A DNA stretch of 64,000 bases from Sulfuricurvum sp. Its GTDB lineage: Bacteria; Campylobacterota; Campylobacteria; Campylobacterales; Sulfurimonadaceae. The stretch is from NCBI RefSeq assembly GCF_030691015.1, contig NZ_JAUYFF010000001.1:62001-126000 (forward strand), given 5' to 3'. A program made the position numbers and the translations under genes. Positions 1-26,070 of the stretch are shown piece by piece (position 1 is the first letter of the stretch; every line of letters begins with the position of its first letter). A model generated the notes under the pieces. That model was given only the letters and a program-made list of their open reading frames with translations. It searched no databases and had not been told where the DNA came from.

Positions 1-103
1 GGTTTTGTTCCAATGACTTCACAGCCTGTCGAATCAGGCTTGTGGCTCTTTCTTTTTTCTGTTCTGCATCTTTGTTTAAATTAGGATTGCCTCGCTTCCC
101 CAT
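1..103 (-). CDS. TnpC/DUF6262-like transposition protein, 5' end only
   Basis: Only the first 34 codons are inside the window; the reading frame is open to base 1. The ATG lies in a TAATG overlap with the stop of the recombinase gene before it, so translation is probably coupled. The peptide begins MGKRGNPNLNKDAEQKKERA and is lysine-rich. Its position as the last gene after tyrosine recombinases, and its start, resemble the short TnpC/DUF6262 proteins of Tn554-type elements. The family call is inference from context and a short N-terminus. Confidence 0.5.
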   Translation of the reverse strand, partial: MGKRGNPNLNKDAEQKKERATSLIRQAVKSLEQN

Positions 104-1638
104 TATTTCTCCTTTCTAATTTGAACTTTGTTGTATAAGGATGCGAAGAGAGCCGCCCTATGATGCGAATCCCTCGCATTCGTCTCTTCTCCAATCTCAA
201 CCTGTTTTTCCGCTATCGTCAAGTACCTATCTACTTGTTCAAGATAGTAGCCTTCAAGATCCGCATCAGGAATCAGGTCATCACAGTCCAAACATTCCAA
301 ATGGTTTCCACAACTAGCAACATCGGGGCAATAACCAAGATCGGCTATCTTATGGGCTCTTGGATTTGCTAATAAGTTCTCTTCATACTTGTCACCTATA
401 CCATTAACTATAGATCCTTTCCAGTAATAGCGGGATTTTATATCGCCTTTTGCTTCCAAAAGCCTCTTTTGCTCAAATATCATAAAGCTGTCTGATGGAG
501 CTGAATAAGCATCCAATGAACCATAGGAGCGATGATTGGCAAATTGTTTTAATTGAGGACTTGTCCAGCCGGACTCCATCCGCAGTGTAATACCAGTTTT
601 TTTGAAGTCTCTTGGCACTGCACGTCTAGCTTCTGAAATTTTTAGGTCCATCTGTACTGAACGTATATATCTAGAATAGCTTAGTGAGGATAATGTGCAA
701 ATTGATTTATCGACGACATGTCGATACGTCAACAGAAAGTCTTTTTTATCTGAAGCAACCTGAAGTTCGTATGCAATGCCTTGCTGTGTTCCAATAAGCT
801 CAAACAGAATTTTCTGCATCGGTTCCTGAAGGTTTAAAAAACCCATCTTGTACTCAATTTCCCCTTTATTAGCGGAGTTTTTTACAACAGCATGTTTAAT
901 CGTCGCCATCTCATCTGTGAGCCTTTTCACACAATCCAATGGGTAGTTAAGTGTATCCTCTGGTCTTGTGGCATACAATCTCATAATCCAATAGGCTACT
1001 CTGATATGAAGAGGTGCTACATCTGTATTGAAATGTGCATCCAATTTTTCTAGAACATCTTGATCAATCACTTTATACTTGCTATCTTTAGATTTTCGGT
1101 CATATGGGTTTTCAATAGCCTCGATACCCTCAATATATGCCATAAAAGAGTGTCCATTCATCACTGAATGAAACTTCATGGCAATATAGAACAGTTTATG
1201 TTTATACACCTCGGATATCAACTTTGCACTTCGTTCATCGACCTTGGCGTCAAGCCATACTGTGTAATGTGCTAACGTATCTTTTTGAACCTGATGTAGA
1301 TTGAGTTTCTTTTCGGAGAGAAACTGATAATAGTTAATCAAGTGCGTTTGGAGATCTCTACCGCTTCCCCGATTCAACCCAGCTACAACAAACAGTTTAG
1401 CTAGATATTTTCCTCTGTTGCCAAGCTTTCCAAGATCTCTGAAAGAAATCGTGTCTGGATGAGACTTATTGGAGCGCTTATCCAGCACCCATGACTCATT
1501 CTCAAATAATGAAGTCGAATACCTCCCTAATGTAACGATAAGCTCTTGCTCAGCCTTCTTTTCATCATTGAATTGCTCATTGAGAAGCTTTTGAAATGTG
1601 ACCTTCCAGACAAACGCTGGTTTTTTTAATGCTGGCAT
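103..1638 (-). CDS. Tyrosine recombinase, third of a trio, degenerate active site
   Basis: A 511-residue tyrosine recombinase/integrase-like protein. Box I arginine is visible at about R225 (YATRPEDTL), and a late His plus the nucleophile tyrosine at about H369 and Y378 (ANHRSYGSLDAY). The expected H-x-x-R of box II reads R-D-F-K (about 343-346), so it may be catalytically weak or act as an accessory subunit. The C-terminus carries a Cys cluster (YCPDVASCGNHLECLDC) that could bind zinc, as in some Tn554-type transposition proteins. It overlaps the upstream recombinase by 13 nt and the downstream TnpC-like gene by 1 nt, so the genes form one translationally coupled operon. Confidence 0.8.
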   Translation of the reverse strand: MPALKKPAFVWKVTFQKLLNEQFNDEKKAEQELIVTLGRYSTSLFENESWVLDKRSNKSHPDTISFRDLGKLGNRGKYLAKLFVVAGLNRGSGRDLQTHLINYYQFLSEKKLNLHQVQKDTLAHYTVWLDAKVDERSAKLISEVYKHKLFYIAMKFHSVMNGHSFMAYIEGIEAIENPYDRKSKDSKYKVIDQDVLEKLDAHFNTDVAPLHIRVAYWIMRLYATRPEDTLNYPLDCVKRLTDEMATIKHAVVKNSANKGEIEYKMGFLNLQEPMQKILFELIGTQQGIAYELQVASDKKDFLLTYRHVVDKSICTLSSLSYSRYIRSVQMDLKISEARRAVPRDFKKTGITLRMESGWTSPQLKQFANHRSYGSLDAYSAPSDSFMIFEQKRLLEAKGDIKSRYYWKGSIVNGIGDKYEENLLANPRAHKIADLGYCPDVASCGNHLECLDCDDLIPDADLEGYYLEQVDRYLTIAEKQVEIGEETNARDSHHRAALFASLYNKVQIRKEK

Positions 1639-4046
1639 CTTCTTTCCTTCTCTACTTCAAGTTCATCAACCACACTCTGGTACGATTCGAGTCGATGCTG
1701 CTGGATAATATATTCAGCCCATGTAGCATACTCACGACTGGAAATCCCTTCTGCTTCCATTTCGATCACTATCGAATCCAAGATATTTTTTTGGTTATCT
1801 CTAAATTCGATCCATGTTTTCAGATATGGAACATCCGTGATCATACGAGCACAGCTTGCGCAACTCTCAACAGCCTGAAGTTTTCCGCATTCCCCCATAA
1901 TCGGATGCCGGACGCATTCCCCATATTCCATCTTTCGCTTGTGAACATACAACTCAATAAACAGTTGCTCTTTCTCCTCCCTGGTGTAGGCTTGAAGGCG
2001 TTCTTCATCCAATGATACTTTGAAGTGTTTTCTGAATAGATCCGTATTAAGTTCTTCAACCTTGCGCTCGCGAATATACGCATAGGCTTTCTCAGGTGTG
2101 TGGATGCTCATCCATCCAAAAAATGCCTTAATCTCTTCAGGTGCATGACCTTTTTCTACCATTGCAGTTGCGATCATCGAACGCATCTGATATGGTGTGT
2201 ATTTCCAAATATCCGCTTCAAGGTCTGCTTTAATCTTATATTTTTCTATTAGTAAATTGATCGGTTTTGTGAGCTCTCTTGTGGACGGTATATGATACTT
2301 AACCTGATGAGCACGGTTTTGATTACGCCTGATGAATATCGCATGACTTCCAGACTCCATTCTGACCGCTTTACTCAGCAACACCTGCTCATGAAAAGCT
2401 TGAATTACCTCTTCATCGTATATGGGCACTTTTCTAATCGGTTTTTTCCCTCTCTTTGCATAAGCCTTTACTTGCTTATTTGCATAAATTTCCAAAATAT
2501 AGCATCCTATTTTTTTGTCATATACCAAAGAGTCAACTTCGATATACCCAATCTCCGAAGGGCGGCACCCCGTCGCCGATATCACAAGAAATGCGTTTTT
2601 TATTTCTGCTTCAAGCTCATCAAGATACAAACGAATAACAAGATATACCTCTTCTGGTAGCGGCATAGTAGGATTCTCTGGCTCACTGACTTTTACGGAA
2701 AAGTCCCTAGCAATCATTTTCTGAATCTTTTTGAGGGATTCCGCCTCACTCTGACCTTCAATCGTTCTTTGGTTGGATAAATATGTGTAGAATGAAGCAA
2801 TATGGTTCTTTGCTGAGCGCACTGCATTAGGCTTTTTGTACGTACTCAAATATACAGAAACATCACTCTCCAATATCCCCGTTGCAGTTACGTTAAAGCG
2901 ATTTAAAGAAGACTTTACATACTTGAAAAATTGGATTGTTTTCTGCACCACCGATCCATCTTTGTTTTGTGCTGCGCGGTGCATTGCATAGATCTTCAGA
3001 TCCTTACCTATAGAGTCGTTTACAAGCTCACCAAGCTCGATCGAAAAACTTTTCCACTTGTTATTTTGAACATATCCGAAGCAGTATGTTTTAACGTTTT
3101 TTGAGACGTGGATCCTATTTAGCACGCGATATAGCTTTGCCTGCAAATACTGGTATTTTGAGCTCAATCCAATCAACTGATCATAAAAATCCGGCAGTAT
3201 CTCTTTTAGTTTGTATAAAAGGTTCGCTTCTTGATCAATGTGTACTTGTAATGCTTTGCCGAGTGAAATCTCTTCATTGTTAAGCATCTGCCATCTCAGC
3301 TCTTTTTTGAGGGCTTTTACGAACAATTCTTGACATGCAATCAGCGCATACATGATTACTGTTGAATTCGCAACATTAAAATGGTTTGCTACACCTTTTA
3401 AAGACCTCTTACTTGACAGCGCTTCTTGGATATCACATATCAATGCCAATGAAGTTCTGATGTCTTTGTGCAATGCGAATGACTGCTTGTAATCAAGAGT
3501 GATTTTTTTCCAGCCTTGGCTCATATAGTTCACATCAGCAACATATCGATCCAATGGAAGTATTCTCAAAGTAAGTGTGATATCATTTTTTCCCAAGTAC
3601 AACATTTGTTCGATCAGATGTTGCATTTCAGCTTCAAATCTATCCATTCCGCAATCAAACTTGTTTCTCAGAAATCCGAGTTTTTTCATGTTGAACCCAT
3701 GATATTCAAAGTACGCATACCGATGAATCCAATATTGACCGAAACACTTGTGGGTATGTGATTCAAGATATTCCTGTACAAGCTTTGAATGTTTTACTAA
3801 TGCCATCTCCAGCATTGTCCAAATTGCCTTTTCCAAGGCACTACTACGCTTTTCCCCAAACACTCGCTCAGCAATCTCCAGTAAGGTCAATTGTTTGTCA
3901 AGCAAGTTTTCCAAAAACAAATACCAGTCATAAGAATGCATAGAAATGTCTTTAAGATATTCCATTTTGATTTTAATACTACGAAATCGTTCTCCGTTGA
4001 TGACAATAAAGTTGCCCTGTTTTTTATGATACAGGTACTCAACCAT
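1626..4046 (-). CDS. Large tyrosine recombinase (TnpB-like), second of a trio
   Basis: An 806-residue protein whose C-terminal third is a tyrosine recombinase: box I arginine in SATGCRPSEI (about R495), box II as Y-T-P-Y-Q-M-R with Arg but Tyr in place of the usual His, then FFGW and the tyrosine in AYAYI. The first ~350 residues resemble nothing I recognise; a core-binding, helical region follows at about 365-450. Near the C-terminus a Cys cluster (GECGKLQAVESCASC) may bind zinc. Length and place after a ~390-residue recombinase match TnpB of Tn554-type transposons, although it is longer than classical TnpB. An in-frame TTG lies one codon upstream; I chose the ATG, which overlaps the previous gene by 8 nt. 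Confidence 0.8.
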   Translation of the reverse strand: MVEYLYHKKQGNFIVINGERFRSIKIKMEYLKDISMHSYDWYLFLENLLDKQLTLLEIAERVFGEKRSSALEKAIWTMLEMALVKHSKLVQEYLESHTHKCFGQYWIHRYAYFEYHGFNMKKLGFLRNKFDCGMDRFEAEMQHLIEQMLYLGKNDITLTLRILPLDRYVADVNYMSQGWKKITLDYKQSFALHKDIRTSLALICDIQEALSSKRSLKGVANHFNVANSTVIMYALIACQELFVKALKKELRWQMLNNEEISLGKALQVHIDQEANLLYKLKEILPDFYDQLIGLSSKYQYLQAKLYRVLNRIHVSKNVKTYCFGYVQNNKWKSFSIELGELVNDSIGKDLKIYAMHRAAQNKDGSVVQKTIQFFKYVKSSLNRFNVTATGILESDVSVYLSTYKKPNAVRSAKNHIASFYTYLSNQRTIEGQSEAESLKKIQKMIARDFSVKVSEPENPTMPLPEEVYLVIRLYLDELEAEIKNAFLVISATGCRPSEIGYIEVDSLVYDKKIGCYILEIYANKQVKAYAKRGKKPIRKVPIYDEEVIQAFHEQVLLSKAVRMESGSHAIFIRRNQNRAHQVKYHIPSTRELTKPINLLIEKYKIKADLEADIWKYTPYQMRSMIATAMVEKGHAPEEIKAFFGWMSIHTPEKAYAYIRERKVEELNTDLFRKHFKVSLDEERLQAYTREEKEQLFIELYVHKRKMEYGECVRHPIMGECGKLQAVESCASCARMITDVPYLKTWIEFRDNQKNILDSIVIEMEAEGISSREYATWAEYIIQQHRLESYQSVVDELEVEKERRCQH

Positions 4047-5208
4047 CAAGCTTTCCTTTTAGTTCCAATAAACGCTTATTTAAGTCTTCAGCATGCTTTT
4101 TAGCAAATTCTTGTGCAATCTCCGCATTTGCATGGTCTACATACGGCCTAATAGAGTCAATCGTTTTCCAACCCATAATGTGACGAATCGTCTCATCTGT
4201 TAATTTCAGCTCGCCATTCACCATGTCTTTAACTAGTTTCGTCGCCTTATCAGATCGTCCTGAGTGTGTTCGCACCGCTCCTTTAATACCAGCTTTTTTA
4301 GCAGCTGTTTTTAAAGCACTTCTATATGAATTTGCCGAATATTCTGTAAAAGCTACCTCTTCATTTTTTATTCGAGTATTCACAAATAAAGCATCATTTA
4401 ACTTTTTTGCTTTCATCTCTGCCTTATTTCGCTCATGACGAATATAGTTCTCAATCACGGAGGCCGTCTGATCACCGATAGCCACAGTACGTTTTCTACC
4501 GCGTCCAGTACCCTTAGATCTACTCGGCTTCACAGTGCTGTTCTTAGGATCATAATCTTTCAGCTTGATAGAAAGAACTTCATCAATCCTCATACCATGT
4601 AATGTCAACAGAAAAATTGCACGATTGCGATAATTACTGAAGTTGGAGTAGATTGCATGGATTTCCTCATCGGAGTATTCCATAATGTACTCTTTAATAT
4701 TTGTCTTGAATTTAGTGAGGAACAAATCAATTATCGCATCAGCAACCGATTCAACACTGTCCCAACGTAAAGTTAGTGCCGTCTTGTATTCCAATAATCC
4801 TCCATCTTTCCATCGATGAATCTGAAGAACGCTATGATCTGCGAATTGCCATAGAAATTTATAGAACCTGACGATCAAATCCTTGTGCTTCATGATTGTC
4901 TTATATCCAGCACTAGGTTCGCTTACAATCTCACCAGTTTTGACATCAAAATTAATAATATAGAGCATGTATGCCTTGACATCTTCATCAGTAGCATTCC
5001 AATACTGTATACCTCTTTCAGATAAAAAGTTAAAATATTTCACAAGACCATATCCTACTCGCTTGCCATATTCTAAAGAGTTTTTAGAACGGTTACTGAC
5101 ATATAAGCTTGAATAAAAATCCGGTATATTTGGGGTACAAATAAAGTAAAAATGGCTAATATTGCCATTTTTATGCCTTTTTCTTCCATTTTTGATACGA
5201 TATATCAT
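4039..5208 (-). CDS. Tyrosine recombinase (TnpA-like), first of a trio
   Basis: A 389-residue tyrosine recombinase with an apparently complete active site: R207 in LHGMRIDEVL, H315-x-x-R318 in RTHSGRSD, H343/W347 in HIMGW, and nucleophile Y356 in RPYVD. Residues ~45-125 form the SAM-like core-binding domain. It is the first gene of the trio and probably supplies the main strand-exchange activity of the element, with the next two proteins as partners. ATG start with a weak AAGAG ribosome site. In Tn554 the tnpA side is close to one end of the element, so the end should lie in the ~380 bases upstream. Confidence 0.88.
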   Translation of the reverse strand: MIYRIKNGRKRHKNGNISHFYFICTPNIPDFYSSLYVSNRSKNSLEYGKRVGYGLVKYFNFLSERGIQYWNATDEDVKAYMLYIINFDVKTGEIVSEPSAGYKTIMKHKDLIVRFYKFLWQFADHSVLQIHRWKDGGLLEYKTALTLRWDSVESVADAIIDLFLTKFKTNIKEYIMEYSDEEIHAIYSNFSNYRNRAIFLLTLHGMRIDEVLSIKLKDYDPKNSTVKPSRSKGTGRGRKRTVAIGDQTASVIENYIRHERNKAEMKAKKLNDALFVNTRIKNEEVAFTEYSANSYRSALKTAAKKAGIKGAVRTHSGRSDKATKLVKDMVNGELKLTDETIRHIMGWKTIDSIRPYVDHANAEIAQEFAKKHAEDLNKRLLELKGKLDG

Positions 5209-5586: not shown

Positions 5587-5979
5587 TTACAAATGATTAG
5601 ATGATTCTTTTTTATGAAACTGCTCTTTATAAATCAAGATGTATCCATTATGAAGATACGCAATTGTTCCATCGTATTCCTGTGTTGCTTCTTTGATGCA
5701 AATATATGCCTTATTAATGATGTAGTTCATTGTTTTATCACCATATCGAATATGATTGACAAGATTATTCTCTTCATCTACATCAACAATACAACCATAA
5801 AAAAGAGTAGACAAGATACGAATAAGCGTTTGGGGTGATATCTCCCGAACTGTGTCTCTTAATATATTTGGATTGTCTTGAGGGTAATAGCGCACTTCAC
5901 CAAGCTTTAGATTTAAAACATTCCCTTCCATCAGCTTGTCGCCCATAAAATGTCCGATGACCTTGAGTTTGTTCTTCAT
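5587..5979 (-). CDS. Unrecognised 130-residue protein, partner of the zinc-ribbon gene
   Basis: I do not recognise this protein. It has no signal peptide or membrane segment and looks like a compact mixed alpha/beta protein with several aromatic strands (for example DGTIAYLHNGYILIYKEQF). It starts in an ATGA overlap with the stop of the upstream zinc-ribbon gene, so the two are probably made together as a two-gene unit. The unit is AT-rich, lies beside a mobile element and is divergent from an XRE regulator, a setting common for accessory or defence cassettes. Function unknown. Confidence 0.6.
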   Translation of the reverse strand: MKNKLKVIGHFMGDKLMEGNVLNLKLGEVRYYPQDNPNILRDTVREISPQTLIRILSTLFYGCIVDVDEENNLVNHIRYGDKTMNYIINKAYICIKEATQEYDGTIAYLHNGYILIYKEQFHKKESSNHL

Positions 5980-7178
5980 TGTAATTTTTCCTTTGTGTGC
6001 ATATGGACTAGGTAATCAATTGATGCTTTTGACAAAAATCCTTTTTCTTTGATAGTAAGAACTTGATTGAATAAAATACTTGAAATAGTAGTCTGGGGGC
6101 TATTATATGCCCGAGCATAACCTTCCATCTCCCACTGCCTATCGATGGCTTTATTGGCATATTTGACTAGGTTGTCCGTGATGGACTCGACTGATAGATT
6201 CTTTTTGTATTTTTGTTTATATGCGGCAGCGCTATTTGCGACAGCCCAGATAATTTTAAACATCTGTGTAGTTGAAAATTTTTCTGTTACCGTAGATAGT
6301 TCCAAAAGAGTTTTATCGTTGATTATCACTAGTGACTGATATATCAAGCCGCATTTTTCAAGCTGTACCCTTAAATATTCGATACTCTCATGTAATACGA
6401 TTTCTGTCCACAATTCATATCCATCTTCTATTTCTTGAGCTTGTAATATTGAAGGGGCAAGTAGAGTTTTGATGAGTGTTGACCATGTGGTGTCATCATG
6501 TGATATGTTGAGCTCATAATAAATTTCAAATAGATCATACTCTAGCGTATCATTTTCAAGCACAAATGCATTATGACTTCGATCACTAAGGCAGATAATT
6601 CCTCTTGTGATTAAATGAGTATAAATTTTCTGTGCATATTTCGTTGTAGGTGCCAAACGAATATGAGGGCATTTTGAAAAAGGCTTCAAGACCTTTAGAT
6701 CGTTTGTTAAACAATTTTTGACGAGTGCCGCAAGATAAAGACGGTCGCGAAGAGTTAACTCACTAATTTCAACCGGCTGTTTTTTTGTTTTATTGATATA
6801 CCCCGAGATAGCTTCGTCTTTAAACCGTTCACTGAGCTCTTTTACCCGATTTATTTGGCGCTTCAATTCCTTACAGCCATTACAATTACACTTTTTATTA
6901 TTAAGTAAATGGTCACACAGTAAACACACTTGCCTGTCTGTGCCCATGCTATGCCTAGAAGTAGGTAGATACCCAAGGGGAAATTTGCAGTAAGGACATT
7001 TTTCTTTTGATGATACAGGTGGAAAACATTTATAAAGATTAGTTGTTGAAACGTCAATTCGATATTTTTCAATCAGCGATGAAGGTCTGACATTTAAATA
7101 ATATTGCTCTTGAAGTTCTTTTTTTTCTTGTTGCGATAAATGATCAAGCCTGATTAGATATTTTGCGTATTTGTACAC
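5976..7178 (-). CDS. Zinc-ribbon protein with N-terminal HTH-like segment, function unknown
   Basis: A 400-residue cytoplasmic protein. Residues ~30-52 could form a helix-turn-helix (SSLIEKYRIDVSTTNLYK). They are followed by a dense Cys set, CPYC ... CLLC ... CNCNGC (about 61-102), typical of one or two zinc ribbons. The remaining ~300 residues are helical with no motif I can name. The start is GTG behind a good GGGAGAG site. The combination suggests nucleic-acid binding, but no catalytic motif is visible. It heads a two-gene unit transcribed away from the XRE gene across a perfect palindrome, so that regulator may control it. Confidence 0.65.
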   Translation of the reverse strand: MYKYAKYLIRLDHLSQQEKKELQEQYYLNVRPSSLIEKYRIDVSTTNLYKCFPPVSSKEKCPYCKFPLGYLPTSRHSMGTDRQVCLLCDHLLNNKKCNCNGCKELKRQINRVKELSERFKDEAISGYINKTKKQPVEISELTLRDRLYLAALVKNCLTNDLKVLKPFSKCPHIRLAPTTKYAQKIYTHLITRGIICLSDRSHNAFVLENDTLEYDLFEIYYELNISHDDTTWSTLIKTLLAPSILQAQEIEDGYELWTEIVLHESIEYLRVQLEKCGLIYQSLVIINDKTLLELSTVTEKFSTTQMFKIIWAVANSAAAYKQKYKKNLSVESITDNLVKYANKAIDRQWEMEGYARAYNSPQTTISSILFNQVLTIKEKGFLSKASIDYLVHMHTKEKLQ

Positions 7179-7209
7179 TCTGCTCTCTCCCGCTGGAATA
7201 TAATTATTA

Positions 7210-7227
7210 AACCCACTATAGTGGGTT
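7210..7227. promoter_or_regulatory. Perfect 18-bp palindrome, likely operator over divergent promoters
   Basis: AACCCACTATAGTGGGTT is an uninterrupted palindrome centred between 7218 and 7219. It lies between the GTG start of the zinc-ribbon gene (7178) and the ATG of the XRE gene (7283). Its core holds TATAGT on both strands, so it may overlap the -10 boxes of both promoters. The central ACTATAGT resembles the symmetric cores bound by small XRE control proteins. The inferred binder is the adjacent 83-residue regulator. Confidence 0.55.
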
Positions 7228-7282
7228 GTTTAAAAGTATAACAGAAACTACACTCGTGCATATATTTTAATGAAGAAGATAA

Positions 7283-7534
7283 ATGCAAGAATCAATAGTT
7301 TTTTCTGATGATGAAATCAGTTTGATGTATAAAAGAATCGGAGAGAATGTTAAAAAATATCGAGAACTGAAAGAGATGAGCCAGCTTCAGCTCTCGAATG
7401 CAATGGGTTACAATTCGGTCAGTTTGGTATCGGCAGCAGAATTATGTAGTGATGGAAAGCATTTTAATCTTGAGCACCTGTATAAAATCGCCAAGATACT
7501 TGATATTGCAATGTGCAAATTAATAAATACTTAG
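7283..7534 (+). CDS. Small XRE/Cro-type transcriptional regulator
   Basis: An 83-residue protein that is essentially one Cro/C1 helix-turn-helix domain: residues ~14-35 (RIGENVKKYRELKEMSQLQL) lead into the recognition region around NAMGYNSVSLVSAAE, ending in a KIAKILDI helix. Its size matches controller proteins of restriction-modification and other accessory cassettes, but no methylase or endonuclease is adjacent. It is divergent from the zinc-ribbon unit with the 18-bp palindrome between them, so it probably represses or times that unit and itself. Confidence 0.8.
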   Translation: MQESIVFSDDEISLMYKRIGENVKKYRELKEMSQLQLSNAMGYNSVSLVSAAELCSDGKHFNLEHLYKIAKILDIAMCKLINT

Positions 7535-7862
7535 TGTTTCAATAGAAAAGATACAGCGTATTGGTATCAAATATTAGATATCCAAAACATTCCTTCTCTT
7601 TATTATCCACTTGCCAGTATTTAGGATAAATTCTTCATGTCGGAAAACTTCAAAATGTAGTATCCGTATATTCTATAAATTCGACAGTGTTTTTCGTATA
7701 ATAATTTGTTGCTTATCAGATGGCTTTGGACTTGATAATAAGAGTATACGGAAAACACTTGTTTCCCGTACACTATTCTTACTCTTCTAACATTTTAATA
7801 GTTTATAGATATTTTTATATCTTGATAAGATTCACTTTTTAAAATGAAGATTAAATAAGATG
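7535..7862. other. Gene-free 328-base stretch with inverted repeats
   Basis: No gene is seen. The main content is the repeat cluster at 7686-7770. It lies between the XRE gene and the convergent mntP gene, at the boundary between the accessory region and the metal-handling genes. Confidence 0.5.
7686..7770. repeat. Nested inverted repeats of a TACGG-AAAACA motif
   Basis: AGTGTTTTTCGTATA (7686-7700) and TATACGGAAAACACT (7745-7759) are 15-base inverted repeats with one mismatch, enclosing a further CTTATCA/TGATAA pairing. The right arm also forms a tighter palindrome, TACGGAAAACA (7747-7757), CT, TGTTTCCCGTA (7760-7770), again with one mismatch. CGGAAAAC recurs at 7641-7648. It could be a terminator-like hairpin, a protein-binding array, or a recombination/attachment site. 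Confidence 0.5.
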
Positions 7863-8420
7863 CTATAACACTCCAAGATGTTCTAAGAGAATTTTAAAGC
7901 CAAGTCCTATCAGAATTACTCCACCAACCATCTCCGCTTTACTCTCCAAAAGTGACCCTAGTTTTTTCCCGATATAGACCGCAGCGATACATAACACAAA
8001 AGTTACCAGTGCGATCACACTTGCCGCTGTATAAATATCGGTTTGTAAAAAAGCAAATGTCACTCCGATAGCCATTGCGTCGATACTAGTAGCAATACCT
8101 AATGTGATAAGAGCTTTGGTAGAGAGATCGTTCACTTCATTGTCAAACTCGTTTTGATACGCTTCATAGAGCATTTTACCGCCCAGTCCTACAAGGAGGA
8201 CAAAGGCGATCCAGTGGTCGAATGATTGGACGTATTCGGCGAAACTGATCCCGATGAAATATCCGGCAATCGGCATCGCCCCTTGGAAAAATCCGAAAAC
8301 AGCAGCGGCAAATAGGGCTTTAGAGATGAGTAAATCTTTGTATTTTGAGCCGATGGCGATCGAGACGGCGACGGAGTCCATCGCCAATGCTATGGCGAGG
8401 ATGAGAAGGGTTTCATTCAT
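7863..8420 (-). CDS. mntP: Manganese efflux pump MntP
   Basis: An integral membrane protein of 185 residues, the usual MntP length, with about six transmembrane helices in two repeats. The conserved membrane aspartates are present: D15 in ALAMDSVAVS and D114 in ATSIDAMAIG. The family exports Mn2+ across the inner membrane to prevent manganese toxicity. It stands alone on the minus strand, 27 nt after the dmeF stop, so the two may be co-transcribed. I saw no obvious manganese riboswitch upstream. Confidence 0.92.
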   Translation of the reverse strand: MNETLLILAIALAMDSVAVSIAIGSKYKDLLISKALFAAAVFGFFQGAMPIAGYFIGISFAEYVQSFDHWIAFVLLVGLGGKMLYEAYQNEFDNEVNDLSTKALITLGIATSIDAMAIGVTFAFLQTDIYTAASVIALVTFVLCIAAVYIGKKLGSLLESKAEMVGGVILIGLGFKILLEHLGVL

Positions 8421-25782: not shown

Positions 25783-25988
25783 TCCCGATGCTGGTTTATT
25801 GTCTTGTTTGGTTAATTATAGCTTTTTATCTATATTTCTCTACGCGTTAAATAAATTTTGACATATTGACCCATGTCTCTGTAGAGACTTCTTGTCAACA
25901 ATATATAAAATATTATAGTACAATTATATACCACTAAGTAGAGGATTAAAACATTATTTAATGTACTATAAATATAATATTTTATTAG

Positions 25989-26070
25989 TATACTTAAAGA
26001 CAGCGTAGAAGCCGGAAAATAATCACCCCTTAATATGCTGAGGGTTTACCCTCGGCTTATTTTTTTTCTT
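25989..26070 (+). ncRNA. Candidate small structured RNA or leader with attenuator
   Basis: A TATACT box at 25989-25994 would start an RNA near 26001 that ends at a terminator hairpin (26037-26056) and a T-rich tract. Two upstream segments can pair with the terminator arms: CAGCGTA (26001-26007) with TATGCTG (26034-26040), and AAGCCG (26009-26014) with CGGCTT (26053-26058). Either pairing would compete with the terminator. A C-rich loop (CACCCC, 26024-26029) could base-pair with ribosome sites. Either a ~60-nt sRNA or an attenuated leader of the gene at 26179. Confidence 0.4.
26037..26070 (+). terminator. Rho-independent terminator hairpin
   Basis: GCTGAGGG (26037-26044) pairs with CCCTCGGC (26049-26056) around a TTTA loop, allowing one G-T pair, and is followed by a tract of mostly T to 26070. 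No protein gene ends before it on the plus strand, so it would terminate a small RNA or leader. Confidence 0.7.

Follow-up and report, generated by a model that had tools for sequence, protein, structure and literature searches.

What does a 400-residue protein do that is encoded beside a row of recombinase genes and opposite a small regulator of its own, and does this arrangement travel as a unit? The window analysed here is a stretch of 64,000 nucleotides of Sulfuricurvum DNA, for which a sequence-only reading had placed three open reading frames (ORFs) around a perfect palindrome; we found all three ORFs and the palindrome where it had put them. The module, of about 1.9 kb, comprises ORF400, ORF130, the divergent XRE83 and a perfect 18-bp palindrome:

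5587–5979, minus strand: ORF130, lineage-specific partner of ORF400, joined to it by an ATGA overlap
5976–7178, minus strand: ORF400, predicted to contain a helix-turn-helix (HTH), a zinc ribbon, a winged helix and a helical C-terminal half
7203–7232, minus strand: promoter-like hexamers of ORF400, flanking the palindrome and matching the consensus at 9 of 12 positions, a quality no commoner than in shuffles (8 versus a mean of 14.8)
7210–7227, no strand: perfect 18-bp palindrome AACCCACTATAGTGGGTT, probable XRE operator by conservation, shuffles and operator classes
7283–7534, plus strand: XRE83, small divergent HTH_3 regulator (Pfam HTH_3, 26.8 bits)

The stop codon of ORF400 and the start codon of ORF130 share positions 5976–5979, which is the ATGA overlap that had been pointed out, and XRE83 lies above the curated HTH_3 cut-off of 23 bits, in keeping with its description as a divergent XRE gene. 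The dense cysteine cluster ascribed to ORF400 is present as well (Cys 61, 64, 85, 88, 97, 99 and 102); an alignment of 17 relatives keeps C61 and C64 throughout, C85 and C88 in 15, C99 and C102 in 14 and C97 in 12.

ORF400 belongs to no family in Pfam, NCBIfam, PHROGs or PADLOC, and the family libraries gave it no recognised enzymatic family, as the sequence-only reading had anticipated. Scanning the 17 relatives returned scattered hits only, each in one or two members: an Elf1-type ribbon (4e-5), Lar (2.5e-4), BH0509 (5e-4), OHA (0.0025), Condensin2nSMC (0.0037, in two members) and BstA (0.009, in 1 of 17). Structure prediction, proposed earlier as a check, placed an HTH, a ribbon and a winged helix in the N-terminal half, matching the HTH-like start that had been read from the letters. 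The model, built from four sequences, is fair at residues ~11–240 (block pLDDT mostly 67–90, with dips at 71–80 and 171–180), where it shows helices at 16–27, 32–39 and 45–51, the ribbon at 55–102, a long helix at 100–131 and a winged-helix-like region at 143–223. It is poor at residues 272–400, and residues 223–400 modelled alone reached a mean pLDDT of 47. Fold searches gave no clear match: the best Z of the fold comparison was a weak 4.9, Foldseek returned no match at E ≤0.001, and profile matches to RNA polymerase ribbons were weak (E 0.02–0.13). From the modelled domains we infer that ORF400 is a DNA-binding protein. One relative departs from this plan: in the 851-aa Janthinobacterium member (L022 8306–10861) the place of the zinc ribbon is taken by a long N-terminal stretch that matches TPR.

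The module lies in an island whose ends were located by comparison with empty sites. The relevant features are as follows:

1–103, minus strand: start of a 162-aa coiled-coil gene, ginD-like by position (remainder left of the window, L015 18616–19104)
103–1638, minus strand: third recombinase-like protein, ginC-like by position (PHROG integrase, E 1e-4; no PF00589 match)
1626–4049, minus strand: large tyrosine recombinase, ginB-like by position (PF00589, E 7e-12)
4039–5208, minus strand: tyrosine recombinase, ginA-like by position (PF00589, E 1e-18)
1–25992, no strand: part of the island inside the window, by empty-site comparison; 493 bp more lie to the left
25993–26023, no strand: right island end, the original 3′ end of an HU-like gene, by empty-site comparison

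The gin-like names are assigned by position, not by comparison with named Gin proteins. The recombinase trio described earlier holds for two members, which match Pfam Phage_integrase; the third is integrase-like by its PHROG match only. Together with the small fourth gene the trio runs in operon-like order with near-overlaps at one island end, and in a genome-wide PF00589 search the two members were the only matches inside the island, where other recombinase types were sought by reading ORF lists. The island measures 26,485 bp (contig C4 61508–87993) and is inserted in the 3′ end of a gene that we take to be HU-like. Among nine relatives compared at this gene, the left flank joins window position 25993 directly in six, two more keep the flank order and G026 does not; all 31 bases of window 25993–26023 agree with the G017 empty site. 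The left island end carries a substituted 3′ end, so that the HU-like product survives and differs from that of G020 at one residue. The direct repeats are imperfect, with an 8-bp perfect core (CTTAAAGA) and 22 of 33 positions alike. The remaining cargo is presumably metal efflux and its regulation (genes that we take to be mntP, CDF and CzcABC); what we take to be an mntP-like gene at 7863–8420 is ~80% identical to another at G000:C4:259495–260057.

Two repeated sequences were seen in the island. An inverted repeat, AATTGTACTAT-CAA-ATAGTACAATT, lies just inside the left end (L015 18571–18595), with a matching arm of 11 bases close to the right end (around window position 25915), and is a possible recombinase binding site. 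Window 7636–7772 is an orphan copy of a dispersed sequence, with no resolvase ORF seen beside it. We considered this copy as an island terminus or cassette boundary and rejected it, since the island ends lie elsewhere and, of 16 copies read, 10 overlap the 5′ end of a small gene that we assume to be serine-resolvase-like; four have no such gene beside them and two are at contig ends.

When the window was compared at the DNA level with its counterparts in G026, G012 and G016, the only block common to these four Sulfuricurvum loci was window ~5617–7533, which holds ORF130, ORF400 and XRE83; outside it there are just short recombinase-type matches between some pairs. ORF400 starts with GTG in the window and with ATG in the other three cassettes. 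Against G012 and G016, identities are 48–49% for ORF400, 74–76% for ORF130 and 87–90% for XRE83 (84–90% across all three other cassettes). All three genes are under purifying selection, with dN/dS between the window and G026 of 0.24 for ORF400, 0.15 for ORF130 and 0.04 for XRE83, the last with dS near saturation. The G012 and G016 modules hold an NYN-domain gene between ORF400 and ORF130 (E 8e-10 for the G012 copy), and the G012 module an additional 116-aa gene with weak likeness to Phd/YefM antitoxins (E 0.006). The NYN-domain copies are at L009 9836–10465 and L011 13103–13732, with a dN/dS of 0.18; at L011 12498–13103 ORF130 has an extra tail, which we take to be HicB-type and which is perhaps a recombination scar. 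ORF130 was found in 2 of 397 genomes of the phylum, both of which also carry ORF400, and had no plasmid or viral match; the family libraries assigned it to no family, the best match being AbiEi (PADLOC, E 0.016). In this lineage it was seen with ORF400 and nowhere else, as a putative accessory partner.

ORF400 also keeps company with recombinases. Of eight genomes examined, five have a PF00589 match no more than 8 kb away from it, and these are all five of the genus that carry it; in G217, G301 and G322 there is no such match within 8 kb on its contig. The PF00589-near share of a genome is 2.8–5.2% (about 4% expected), which gives P 6e-6 assuming independence, an optimistic value given that the five genes share ancestry. 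This proximity favours the main rival to the reading that we prefer, namely that ORF400 regulates the mobile element itself (its excision, replication or copy number) by binding the ends, the origin or the recombinase promoter, with XRE83 as its repressor. An HTH, a zinc ribbon and a winged helix unaccompanied by a recognised enzymatic family would suit such a role, as would plasmid pP62BP1, where, in the available text of its description, the XRE gene paired with an ORF400 relative is placed upstream of a proposed oriV and is suggested to belong to the replication region (PMC3346939). Against it, the recombinase modules adjoining the cassette differ among the four loci, and the side that the cassette occupies is that of ginA in the window and that of ginD in G026. 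We regard this rival as somewhat unlikely, and the operator evidence weighs further against it.

The palindrome at 7210–7227, in the intergenic region between ORF400 and XRE83 as described earlier, is the sole gapless perfect dyad with a half-arm of at least 8 in the 64-kb window; a general repeat search of the window did not list it as a palindrome. Mononucleotide shuffles of the 104-bp intergenic region produced an equal dyad in 18 of 20,000 cases. The palindrome is conserved as a perfect 16 bp in G016, with one change in G026 and with two in G012, and it lies between the −35-like and −10-like hexamers of ORF400, 55 bp upstream of the XRE83 start. Scanning the window for this operator gave one occurrence at up to 3 mismatches; in the genome, allowing 1 mismatch gave no further copy and allowing 2 gave one, at which level a reversed control pattern gave 4 matches per strand. 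Thus we see no second operator at the recombinase operon, the point that counts against ORF400 as a regulator of the element.

That the palindrome is very probably the XRE83 operator is suggested by related regulators, in which palindrome type follows the class of recognition helix. Of 41 genomes in the genus, 26 have matches to XRE83. At 15 of 16 XRE loci read by eye, a divergent ORF, of many kinds, lies within roughly 40–155 bp; an automatic count found one of at least 60 aa at 28 of 49 XRE frames, a figure kept low in part by the shortness of many stretches. Locus L135 yielded no XRE frame and L128 yielded two; for the window and L007 the divergent ORF listed automatically is a wrong short frame, an effect of the slicing. 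The helix SVSLVSAAEL goes with ACCCAC palindromes, SPGLISQxEL with ATAGTAA, [SA]VGxxS[VM]AE with ACTAAC, SLSIxSLAE with ACTTGT and, weakly (1 of 4 exact), SVSxxAKAE with TTCACT. Across the 49 related small XREs, with one mismatch allowed, the palindrome of the own class was present in 27 of 34 classed frames and that of another class in 2 of 211 comparisons; none of 5000 label permutations equalled this association. Collapsing similar upstream regions left 22 of 25. Exact matches numbered 19/34 for the own class (A 3/6, B 7/14, C 5/6, D 3/4, E 1/4) and 1/211 for other classes. Loci retrieved once the types had been written down gave 11/16 against 1/129, in a test that was not fully blind, as half-sites were trimmed and some class patterns loosened after these loci had been analysed. 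Kinship of neighbours explains part of the association, because the class A loci with the dyad are all this ORF400 module and the neighbours in class D are related; classes B and C each hold their own palindrome beside unrelated neighbours. L109, an unrelated class A locus, has both half-sites, not as one dyad. The eight frames of class F (helix STSFxARIE; L146, L148–L153 and L128) have none of the five palindrome types.

Genes divergent from XRE83 relatives include ORFs that we take to be lipoprotein-like and GGDEF-like. Because the same XRE type adjoins so many unrelated genes, the layout of an XRE and a divergent gene is by itself no sign of defence or of a toxin–antitoxin. It fits a second alternative, in which ORF400 is an ordinary accessory gene with no role in conflict that carries one of the plug-in XRE repressors of the genus, as other genes presumably do by their position. 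We find this improbable: within the genus the proximity of ORF400 to recombinases far exceeds expectation, and relatives of ORF400 are carried on plasmids of Bacillota, Pseudomonadota and Actinomycetota.

How widely does the family occur? ORF400 was found in 5 of 100 relatives, the window's own genome included, and in 6 of 397 genomes of the phylum. A fragment in G026 (L006) is joined to L007 as one gene, on the assumption that the two contigs are adjacent. In the phylum count a row for G380 was dropped as a fragment or chance hit (E 1e-4, 38 residues, a 58-aa frame between two ordinary genes). Relatives lie on 15 plasmid records among the 72,556 searched (the union of several searches), on one viral contig, found with five family queries, and in 8 genomes, which makes 24 distinct loci; two queries found none in 50,697 phage records, and a single, pattern-limited scan of genome contigs returned two loci, both already known. 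Outside the phylum the search covered plasmids and hardly any chromosomes, so that the choice of collections partly determines the plasmid share. As to the suggested clustering in defence islands, several plasmid relatives have restriction, BREX, RES or AbiEii genes nearby. That of Methylophaga is near a recombinase trio, RES/XRE, SLATT and restriction genes, that of Oceanisphaera near BREX-1 and a recombinase, those of Janthinobacterium and Thiothrix near AbiEii and that of Hydrocarboniclastica near RES; two Psychrobacter plasmids have restriction systems near it. A P. aeruginosa plasmid relative is near an integrase-domain gene and a RelE/ParE pair, the Exiguobacterium one has a recombinase within 5 kb and the Rossellomorea one is near phage structural genes. 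At some other plasmid loci no such mobile or defence neighbours were seen.

A divergent XRE was seen at 8 of the 24 loci; for the other 16 the reading relied on ORF lists or on gene tables with gaps. This bears on a third alternative, a toxin–antitoxin-like pair with ORF400 or ORF130 as the toxin and XRE83 as repressor or antitoxin. A small XRE adjoining a mobile-borne protein would fit it, as would the NYN-domain gene inside the module at two loci and the weak matches of XRE83 to couple_hipB (17.1 bits against a cut-off of 71.65) and to a PADLOC control-protein model. The genes are divergent rather than co-operonic, however, no divergent XRE was seen at those 16 loci, XRE relatives adjoin many unrelated genes, and neither ORF400 nor ORF130 matches a toxin family. 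We consider such a pair quite improbable.

We tentatively favour, at something short of an even chance, a mobile, XRE-repressed accessory module whose ORF400 acts in genetic conflict when released from its repressor. That the module is mobile is supported by one common block with differing recombinase modules, by empty sites and by the island ends; the proximity to recombinases, the plasmid records (several beside defence genes), the Psychrobacter pairs, the operator association and the structure model point the same way. Module, island and operator association can be read directly from the DNA, whereas repression by XRE83 and a conflict role for ORF400 we infer, the latter, though the leading idea, only weakly. 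Of the self-regulated mobile cassette first proposed, the three-gene block, the island with its empty site and the operator code stand; its comparison with defence or toxin–antitoxin systems found no such family matches. XRE83 would bind the palindrome, holding down both ORF400–ORF130 and its own gene. ORF400 would bind DNA through its N-terminal HTH, zinc ribbon and winged helix, its conserved helical C-terminal domain presumably carrying an activity or a partner contact, and ORF130 may act as its accessory partner. The module would travel as cargo of recombinase-bearing islands, and ORF400 relatives on plasmids; once the repressor is lost or titrated, ORF400 may act against phage or rival mobile DNA. 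This reading is weakened because ORF400 has no PADLOC family, because XRE relatives lie beside genes unlike defence, because a divergent XRE was seen at just a third of the loci and three genomes lack a nearby PF00589 match, and because plasmids are rich in defence genes and their share reflects the collections searched. A wider proposal, which we hold to be doubtful, is that ORF400 founds an uncharacterised family of conflict proteins that bind DNA by a zinc ribbon and spread across phyla on plasmids and recombinase islands, and that in Sulfuricurvum ORF400 came under one of the genus-wide plug-in XRE repressors with diversified, possibly orthogonal address classes (AACCCAC, ATAGTAA, AACTAAC, AACTTGT and AATTCAC half-sites). 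Both readings lose some weight because a search effect accounts for part of the plasmid share and, in the operator code, classes B and C alone are independent of related neighbours. If the operator code is true, the genus supplies matched repressor–operator pairs, a natural record of diversifying HTH specificity and perhaps a source of orthogonal switches; if the conflict role is true, an unrecognised, phylum-crossing family is added to mobile-element biology. Among the open-access papers and terms searched, we found no paper on the ORF400 family or on such an operator code.

Comparison with known systems places the module only in part. Restriction–modification controller (C) proteins and phage CI/Cro-type repressors are small XRE proteins that exert divergent control through a palindromic operator; XRE83 is alike in size, divergent layout and palindrome, its candidate operator, whereas no restriction–modification or lysogeny gene was recognised in the ORF400 module. 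Unlike type II toxin–antitoxins, and the HTH aside, ORF400 and ORF130 match no established family of toxins or antitoxins, and among known anti-phage systems (PADLOC-DB 2023) ORF400 has no match and ORF130 only that to AbiEi. The island resembles GInt genomic islands, which, in the part of their description available, have recombinase-like genes in a row (ginABC) with a small fourth protein (ginD), variable cargo, imperfect direct repeats and insertion at the 3′ end of a gene whose product is kept (PMC5385486; see also PMC10214605). It shares the recombinase row, with a third member only weakly recognisable, the small fourth gene, the imperfect repeats and the gene-end insertion that keeps the product. 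GInts have ginA at the outer end and cargo after ginD (PMC5385486), whereas here the ginD-like gene is outermost, beside the HU end, and the ginA-like gene faces the cargo; we call the island GInt-like only, because the operon runs the other way round. The closest parallel in layout is on Psychrobacter plasmids, where an XRE gene is divergent from the ORF400 relative in four of four and the intergenic region is 95% conserved, with an inverted repeat of AACCACTG and CAGTGGTT arms. The available text on pP32BP2 says nothing of the pair (PMC6514802). That on pP62BP1 describes a 401-aa hypothetical protein and a divergent XRE gene (ORF32/ORF33) and, of the pair, discusses only the XRE gene, as a possible replication regulator (PMC3346939). 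The pair differs from the window proteins in sequence (~16% identity for ORF400 and 28% for the XRE) and no ORF130 was seen with it; it combines, as in the window, an ORF400-family protein with a divergent XRE.
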